From positions 1-64,000 of the forward strand of contig PLRS01000055.1 in NCBI GenBank assembly GCA_003164035.1: a stretch of DNA of 64,000 nucleotides, written 5' to 3'. Origin of the DNA: Bryobacterales bacterium (lineage in GTDB: Bacteria > Acidobacteriota > Terriglobia > Bryobacterales > Bryobacteraceae). Positions 25,611 through 45,121 of the stretch are shown here, piece after piece. Within the stretch, counting starts at the first letter, position 1. Each line of letters opens with the position of its first letter. A model generated the notes under the pieces. The model saw only the letters and a program-made list of their open reading frames with translations. It was not told the DNA's origin and searched no databases. The position numbers and the translations under genes were made by a program.

Positions 25611-25684
25611 CTGTTTTCGTGGCGCGCGCACTCGTGCGTGCCGCGTCGAGACTCATCTCGACGCCCGTCTTCCAGCCGGAAACT

Positions 25685-25719
25685 GTGGGGCAGACCATCG
25701 TTTTATGTGGTCTGCCCCT
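25685..25719. repeat. GTGGGGCAGACC hairpin, copy 2 of a dispersed repeat
   Basis: The segment reads GTGGGGCAGACCATCG ... GTGGTCTGCCCC, a 10-bp stem with an A/T-rich loop. It is almost identical (one change in 33 nt) to the reverse complement of 31029-31061. It lies in the 132-bp gap between lpxA and lpxI, so the operon continues through it. It could attenuate or stabilise the mRNA. Confidence 0.85.
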
Positions 25720-30928: not shown

Positions 30929-31028
30929 ATGGGGCGGCGGCGACACGGCAGCCGTGCAGTCGCGTCAGGGCAGGCATGAATCGTCTCTCGGGACGGTCCA
31001 ATCCAGTGTGCGAGTCTCCGAACTCATA

Positions 31029-31125
31029 GGGCAGACCACAAAAAACGATGGTCTGCCCCACAGTGACTTGCCGACGGCCATCGCGTGGCGAAATGCCGGG
31101 GCGAGATCGGGAGGTCGGAGTCCGC
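31029..31125. repeat. Dispersed element: GGGCAGACC hairpin plus shared 22-bp end
   Basis: 31029-31061 is a perfect 10-bp stem (GGGCAGACCA / TGGTCTGCCC) and nearly matches the hairpin at 25685. 31087-31108 is a 22-bp sequence containing GCGAAATGCCGGGGCGAGAT that recurs exactly at 44408-44429 in the element inside DUF4160. The two copies show a larger unit in which a hairpin is followed by this end. It sits between the pirin and aminotransferase genes. Confidence 0.8.
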
Positions 31126-44094: not shown

Positions 44095-44519
44095 GTGCCG
44101 ACCATACTGATGGTGGGGCCATACCGGATCTATTCTTACAGCCATGAGCCAAACAAGCCTCCCCATGTGCACGTGGATCGCGACGATCAGTCGGCGAAGT
44201 TCTGGCTGGACCCGGTTGCGCTGGCCAGAAATCTTGGCTTCGGTCCGGTGGAGCTTCCGCTCCTGAGGTCGTGGAATTTGGGTTGAGCCAGGTTTCGAAC
44301 TCGTCGGCACAGGGCCGGGCTGGCGCCCGGCTGGACCGATTGACAATCGGTCCGCAGGTTAGACAACCTGCCCCACAAAAAATGGGTCACCTTACTTTCC
44401 TTCGCGGGGCGAAATGCCGGGGCGAGATCAGGAGTTCGGAGCTTCGGCGAGTCCACCGGCTAGTGGCGGAGAATCGCACTTTCTTGTTGGAGAAATGGAA
44501 TGAACGCTTCCCATCTTAA
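44095..44519 (+). pseudogene. DUF4160 gene split by a 180-bp repeat insertion
   Basis: The 5' part (GTG 44095 onward) encodes the DUF4160 N-terminus: PTILMVGPYRIYSYSHEPNKPPHVHVDRDD, AKFWLDPVALARNLGFGPVEL. It then runs into foreign sequence and stops at 44286. From 44446 another frame encodes the family C-terminus, RRVHRLVAENRTFLLEKWNERFPS, stop at 44517-44519. GGAGCTTC occurs on both sides (44250-44257 and 44438-44445). Deleting 188 nt joins GPVEL to RRVHRL in one 78-codon frame, the normal family length. DUF4160 is usually paired with DUF2442, which follows here. Confidence 0.85.
44258..44437 (+). mobile_element. 180-bp non-coding repeat element inserted with an 8-bp target duplication
   Basis: The segment lies between two copies of GGAGCTTC inside the DUF4160 gene. 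Its ends show short imperfect inverted repeats (CTCCTGAGGTCG near 44261 against CGAGATCAGGAG near the right end). Inside are palindromes GCCGGGCTGGCGCCCGGC, ACCGATTGACAATCGGT and GCAGGTTAGACAACCTGC, followed by the 22-bp sequence at 44408-44429 shared with 31087-31108. There is no ORF. Such an element would have to be moved in trans by another element's transposase. Confidence 0.75.
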
Positions 44520-44775
44520 TTCCGGCGAACGGGTACGCGACGTACACGTCACTGAAGACACACTGGCGGTGGACCTCGCAGACGGGCGCACAATCATCGT
44601 GCCCTTGACGTGGTATCCGCGGCTTTTGAACGCTACCATGGAACAGCGATCCCGCTGGAAAGTAAGCGGAGCAGGCTATGGGATTCACTGGCCGGACCTT
44701 GATGAAGACCTGAGCACGGAAGGCTTACTCCGCGGCGCGCCTGCCGCCGCGGAACCCGCTCGTATTGGCCGCTAG
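44500..44775 (+). CDS. DUF2442 protein, partner of DUF4160
   Basis: 91 aa. ERVRDVHVTEDTLAVDLADGRTIIVPLTWYPRLLNA is the DUF2442 signature; IHWPDLDEDLSTEGLLRG is its conserved end. The start at 44500 lies inside the 3' end of the DUF4160 frame (20-nt overlap), with TTGGAGAAATGGA upstream. DUF4160/DUF2442 pairs are suspected toxin-antitoxin modules; DUF2442 would be the antitoxin or DNA-binding part. Because its partner is broken, this may be an orphan. Confidence 0.85.
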   Translation: MNASHLNSGERVRDVHVTEDTLAVDLADGRTIIVPLTWYPRLLNATMEQRSRWKVSGAGYGIHWPDLDEDLSTEGLLRGAPAAAEPARIGR

Positions 44776-44833: not shown

Positions 44834-45121
44834 ATGACGCGTAAGAAAGGCAAGGTTGGCTCCTGTTTTGATAGCTTTCTGGCCGAACAAGGCATTCTGG
44901 AGGAATGCCAGGAACGGGCCGTCAAGCAGATCCTCGCCGATCAGATCAAAGCCGCCATGGGAAAGGATCGCCTTACCAAGGCGGCGATGGCCATCCGCAT
45001 GCAAACCAGCCGCAGAGCGCTCGACCGCTTGCTCGACCCCACCAACACTGGTGTTACCTTGCACACTCTTCAACGCGCTGCGGCGGCAATCGGCCGCCAA
45101 CTTCGGCTGGAGCTTATTTGA
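44834..45121 (+). CDS. HTH-type (XRE/HigA-like) transcriptional regulator
   Basis: 95 aa from ATG 44834, with AAGGAG 12 nt upstream. The second half holds a helix-turn-helix: LTKAAMAIRMQTSRRALDRLLDPTNTGVTLHTLQRAAAAIGRQLRLEL, like the XRE antitoxins of HigBA/RelBE-type modules. The N-terminal part (SCFDSFLAEQGILEECQERAVKQIL) is charged and helical. No toxin gene of the usual type is next to it, except the DUF2442/DUF4160 genes upstream. Confidence 0.82.
   Translation: MTRKKGKVGSCFDSFLAEQGILEECQERAVKQILADQIKAAMGKDRLTKAAMAIRMQTSRRALDRLLDPTNTGVTLHTLQRAAAAIGRQLRLELI

Follow-up and report, generated by a model that had tools for sequence, protein, structure and literature searches.

A probable MITE-like element of composite build in an interrupted DUF4160 gene of a Bryobacterales bacterium

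The interrupted DUF4160 gene and its DUF2442 partner

The window analysed here is a stretch of 64,000 nucleotides from the draft genome of a Bryobacterales bacterium. It contains a two-part DUF4160 gene and an overlapping intact DUF2442 gene, which together span 44095-44775. The DUF4160 frame starts with GTG at 44095 and reaches a TGA stop (44284-44286) within the insert, and its N-terminal part matches PF13711 in a profile search (residues 10-60 against profile positions 2-52 of 65, E 1.8e-12). An interruption of 188 nt divides the gene, flanked by GGAGCTTC at 44250-44257 and again at 44438-44445. The features of the locus are as follows, with the limits of the cassette set by eye.

44095-44257, + strand: DUF4160 gene (DhiT-type toxin), portion 5' of the insert, with the PF13711 match
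44245-44252, + strand: 5' arm of a palindrome of the gene, CCGGTGGA, with its partner TCCACCGG at 44452-44459
44251-44257, + strand: GAGCTTC, 7-bp target duplication on the left of the element
44258-44438, + strand: element of 181 bp, placed by the family-wide ends
44258-44266, + strand: left terminal repeat CGCTCCTGA, a 9-base form that is 2 bases shorter than the family form CGAACTCCTGA
44258-44313, + strand: left arm, family-wide
44314-44376, + strand: type I cassette, with hairpins at 44314-44331, 44333-44353 and 44354-44371, then CCCAC
44384-44438, + strand: right arm, ending in TCAGGAGTTCG
44428-44438, + strand: right terminal repeat TCAGGAGTTCG, the end of the right arm
44439-44445, + strand: GAGCTTC, 7-bp target duplication on the right of the element
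44446-44519, + strand: 3' part of the DUF4160 gene, compared with the homologue L075
44500-44775, + strand: intact DUF2442 (DhiA-type antitoxin) gene, PF10387, E 3.9e-27

A first-pass annotation had read the 188-nt interruption as a recent insertion by a short palindromic element without an ORF, 180 bp long and flanked by an 8-bp duplication, and had placed the DUF2442 partner just downstream. The letters of the repeated 8-mer and the position of the partner (the PF10387 gene) are as it described. It had also pointed to further copies, empty sites in homologous genes and flanking duplications as the places to look.

DUF4160 and DUF2442 are the domain pair of DhiT and DhiA, with the toxin gene first, described as a working toxin-antitoxin system in Dickeya dadantii and E. 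coli (PMC8198452). The window has the same order, a DUF4160 gene and then a DUF2442 gene, though the toxin gene is interrupted; the toxin half of such a pair is thus broken in the window. Judging from the sequence, the DhiT-type toxin function has probably been lost while the antitoxin gene is retained, and the locus may represent one route by which such a toxin gene disappears and its antitoxin gene remains.

The empty site is seen in homologues. A motif scan for DUF4160 over 15 loci is positive in eight, the window included, and the remaining seven genes are all uninterrupted at the insertion point. These include L075 (genome G037), L078 (G030) and L096, which belongs to another such pair of the genome that holds the window.

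Four near relatives of the antitoxin gene are found without a whole DUF4160 gene. Upstream of DUF2442, L073 and L074 have just a short 3' tail of DUF4160, with an HTH_23 frame beside the tail in L073. The 5' part of DUF4160 is missing in L077, and in L076 a HicB-like frame stands in place of DUF4160. Downstream of the pair in the window, a frame at 44834-45121 has a weak HTH_37 match that is below the cut-off.

Copies of the element

A search of the genome with 44240-44450 gave at least 45 matches, with the best 40 of 135 first-look candidates scored. Some of these matches cover the middle only and others include the arms. The left arm alone has at least 40 matches (40 of 79 candidates scored) and the right arm at least 18 (40 of 42 scored). 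Both arms occur in order in 23 copies within 303,850 bases of loci from this genome, and the arm matches enclose 171-310 bp in these copies (181 bp in the window). The genome holds 25 occurrences of the terminal sequence TCAGGAGTTCG and one of its letters-reversed control; for TCAGGAGTTCGGAG with at most 2 mismatches the counts are 116 against 18. The Bryobacterales host, a soil-type bacterium, carries many gene-less mobile copies; many short repeats have also been reported for Solibacter usitatus (PMC3174227).

The element is short and has no coding capacity. An open frame at 44271-44519 passes from the element into the 3' part of DUF4160, without an evident start context or homologue. Reading the insert as an RNA gene or a tRNA was rejected: nothing in the window reaches the Rfam gathering score, and it contains no tRNA. 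The nearest sister copy is 91% identical, and the insertion can be called recent only in this relative sense.

A second, shorter relative of the element lies in the window at 31012-31124. Its layout is GAGTCTC, CGAACTC, a type III-like hairpin, a right arm ending in TCGGGAGGTCG, and GAGTCCG; the flanking 7-mers GAGTCTC and GAGTCCG are alike in five of seven bases.

Matches to the element were found in nine of 61 genomes, its own included. Among the others an arm is matched in G037 alone (query positions 3-38), G006 matches at the cassette and the start of the right arm, and the rest match the cassette only. A left-arm search of 399 genomes of the class, with up to two candidates per genome scored, returned one match, the genome of the window. 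Type I cassettes that lack these arms are present in relatives, among them G020, G036, G001 and G030. Among wider genome contigs a single 20-mer in Nitrospira, which lacks the element ends, was taken as chance, and viral contigs gave 0 matches. In G037, which belongs to another family of the same order, locus L068 carries a left arm with a variant end at 75-110, cut by the contig start, and TAGTCTC stands at the position expected for the duplication.

Constant arms and hairpin cassettes

The family is built of constant arms with one of five hairpin cassettes in the middle. Among the 23 copies, 7 have type I, 11 type II, 3 type III, and types IV and V occur once each. The window element is of type I, with three consecutive hairpins, and folds strongly (z -4.2 as DNA, and -3.8). 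It is non-coding and contains palindromes, as first annotated, and is composite and modular, not a simple palindrome. In a tree of the arms, where many supports are weak, the cassettes mostly track the arms, and free exchange of cassettes is unsupported. The exceptions are the type V copy, which falls in a type II clade, the type IV copy, which lies beside a type III copy, and one type I copy beside a type II clade.

Module A and the Y1 transposase genes

Both ends are readable in 13 of the 23 copies; the other ten, with an end altered or missing, were left out of the analysis of ends and flanks. Read from their flanks, eight of the 13 sit in a palindromic repeat, module A, which is commonly 113-114 bp long, and a full A-A' pair encloses four of these eight. 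The inner 13-mer of module A has 104 occurrences in the genome, and its control has 0. Of 56 A-A' pairs, 53 were kept; the flanks are unique in 21 of these, and the other 32 group together by flank similarity. No duplication is found at the 21 unique sites, and complementarity of the flanks there is no higher than in re-paired flanks (p 0.84). Since module A is this abundant, occurs also without the core (the arms with their cassette) and lacks a duplication at those sites, it was ruled out as a part of the same element.

Twelve Y1 transposase genes were found in the genome. An A-A' pair at contig C123 surrounds one of them, which lies between inverted module-A ends (L188 267-935, G000 C123:45766-46434). 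This gene matches PF01797 (E 2e-7) and scores 69.5 bits against the model of REP-associated tyrosine transposases, below the cut-off of 80. Hairpins with GTGGGGCAG are found near three further Y1 genes (L251, L252 and L256, around 1501), and in L251 and L252 they flank the gene on both sides. The cassette of the window element also ends in the GTGGGGCAG motif. Because of these Y1-adjacent hairpins and the enclosure at C123, module A and the cassettes resemble repeats of the RAYT-associated kind. Module A encloses a Y1 gene once, at C123. None of the 12 Y1 genes is flanked by the core arms; in L257 a single motif resembling the right arm is found at a distance of about 1.4 kb from the Y1 gene.

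The layering extends further. Module A is itself often embedded in other palindromic repeats, with flanks of the AAATAACCATGCCA and GGCGCTAACTTAG types, which adds up to several nested layers, and in the window a module-A end adjoins a type III hairpin at 25619-25715.

Element ends and the 7-bp target duplication

The family has terminal inverted repeats, CGAACTCCTGA on the left and TCAGGAGTTCG on the right. These ends place the window element at 44258-44438, with a length of 181 bp and a 7-bp duplication, and 181 + 7 gives the same total of 188 nt as the first reading. Boundaries of the 13 readable copies were placed by eye, and the letters were checked by script against the loci of the genome. 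The 7-bp direct repeat is exact in nine of the 13, agrees in six of seven bases in two and in five of seven in two. Automatic placement of the ends alone gives exact 7-mers in five distinct copies, the window included.

The sites are mostly of the form GAGNCTC. They resemble each other (for example GAGTCTC and GAGACTC), which makes each single case of duplication weak, so the chance level was estimated from random pairings of the left 7-mers with the right ones. The nine exact pairs compare with a mean of 3.15 in shuffled pairings (p 7e-5). GAGNCTC is also nearly self-complementary, so that what looks like a duplication could be part of a longer inverted repeat, and the middle base decides between the two. 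In 11 of the 13 copies this base is identical left and right instead of complementary (p 6e-4), which is not expected from a longer inverted repeat. Where the core fills a module-A site, the 7-mer stands on either side; in module-A repeats without the core the same site is empty.

These data bear on a reading in which Y1 (RAYT-type) transposases move the entire unit, with its arms, as a REP-type repeat through single-stranded hairpins, and the 7-bp repeats reflect a longer inverted repeat or a site preference. The strong fold of the element (z -4.2 as DNA), the likeness of its cassette to Y1-adjacent hairpins and the 12 Y1 genes of the genome agree with this reading. Against it, the 7-mers are direct, the core arms flank none of these genes, with one right-arm-like motif at a distance in L257, and a duplication is missing at the 21 unique sites of module A, the repeat that does surround a Y1 gene. 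REP-type movement is not known to leave a target duplication, whereas the core has one. The reading is unlikely for the unit as a whole.

The duplication could also be GGAGCTTC itself, 8 bp long, around an element of 180 bp, as first proposed, since all eight bases are identical on either side in the window. The eighth base, however, agrees in just two of the 12 other readable copies, which is the chance level, and the right end of the family is TTCG, so that the last G of the 8-mer is the final base of the element itself. An 8-bp duplication is unlikely; the flanking repeat and the total length stand, and the division becomes 7 bp and 181 bp. It is very improbable, despite the open frame at 44271-44519, that the inserted sequence has a function within the gene, by read-through or removal, or that it is an artefact of a 169-contig draft assembly: its 188 nt do not divide by three, translation of the 5' part meets a stop, the site is internal to a 97-kb contig and the flanking repeat obeys the family rule.

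The many copies, their common ends, the direct 7-bp repeats, the uninterrupted homologues and the stop within the element are all observed. Homologues lack the sequence at this site and duplication-flanked copies exist elsewhere in the genome, and the insertion reading of the first-pass annotation is supported. The insert is very probably one copy of a MITE-like family that has the ends CGAACTCCTGA and TCAGGAGTTCG, duplicates 7 bp mostly at GAGNCTC, would be moved in trans and may carry a REP-derived cassette.

Insertion target and nesting

The DUF4160 sequence around the insertion point consists of CCGGTGGA, 11 nt and TCCACCGG. An equally good palindrome is found at 0.3% of 8000 random positions of the window and at one of 71 GARNYTC sites on the + strand. 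This is a single post hoc case and module A lends it no support (p 0.84), so the gene palindrome is treated as a lead; a general rule of landing in palindromes, for which the core offers the module-A loops and this one gene, is not claimed.

It is possible, though doubtful, that these repeats form a layered community of non-coding mobile hairpins, with REP-type cassettes inside a 7-bp-duplicating element that itself lands in the loops of module-A hairpins, the target being a small GAGNCTC palindrome in the loop. Since the copy in the toxin gene also lies in a hairpin loop, the loop palindrome, and not the module-A repeat itself, would be the target. That REP-type hairpins are nested both within the element and around it is the most interesting part of the finding, and the composite build is a natural case for nesting of unrelated mobile hairpins that share harmless sites.

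Possible mechanism

A trans-acting transposase would recognise the terminal repeats and paste the element into a GAGNCTC-like site with a stagger of 7 bp. Both this stagger and the ends are seen in the copies, and the enzyme would be of the cut-and-paste (DDE) type. The hairpin cassette in the middle may once have been a REP-type repeat that Y1 (RAYT-type) transposases moved, and may today be carried as cargo.

No transposase gene lies between the ends of the element among the matches listed (the first 100 of 116 for TCAGGAGTTCGGAG, and the arm and TCAGGAGTTCG matches), and no end pair at insertion-sequence spacing occurs in the draft assembly among the same TCAGGAGTTCGGAG matches and those of TCAGGAGTTCG. 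The six PF01609 loci, which are the coverage of DDE-type genes, contain none of the element's sequences. No autonomous partner sharing the ends was found among these matches and loci of the draft assembly, and with the parent element not found the name is limited to MITE-like. MITEs are often filed without a known parent. No description of the family was found in the literature, as judged by title and abstract opening. The family is new but of a known kind, that of MITE-like elements, with a composite build, and the window holds an unusually clean trace of a gene-less element entering a gene, which exposes the ends of the family, the length of the duplication and the target.

Comparison with known systems

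REP and REPIN sequences with their RAYT genes are resembled by module A and the cassettes, which are hairpins around Y1 transposase genes; the core differs in having terminal repeats and a 7-bp duplication.

YPAL/RU-2 of Yersinia, compared by description, is similar in being about 170 bp long, not A+T-rich and without TA ends, and in making target duplications (PMC2229807). Its targets are described as spanning or adjoining dyad symmetry, which the palindrome of the window gene recalls. The reported duplications are 3 to 26 bp long and the inverted repeats internal, whereas here the duplication is 7 bp in nine of 13 copies and the repeats are terminal (PMC2229807). RUP of Streptococcus pneumoniae is likewise short and non-coding, with terminal inverted repeats and a target duplication, and often lies in other mobile DNA (PMC2229807). 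It is reported to use TA sites and a proposed IS630-type helper, in contrast to the GAGNCTC-like sites of the window family, for which no helper was found.

ISPsy8, ISPa11, ISPpu9, ISPpu10, ISRm19 and ISRm22 are described as choosing REP sequences, and landing in a palindromic repeat is the point of likeness (PMC1525189). These elements encode transposases, whereas the window element is gene-less and has also landed in a gene. The locus itself shares with DhiT/DhiA of Dickeya dadantii the domain pair and the toxin-first order (PMC8198452); the toxin gene of the window is interrupted, and the activity of its pair is putative.
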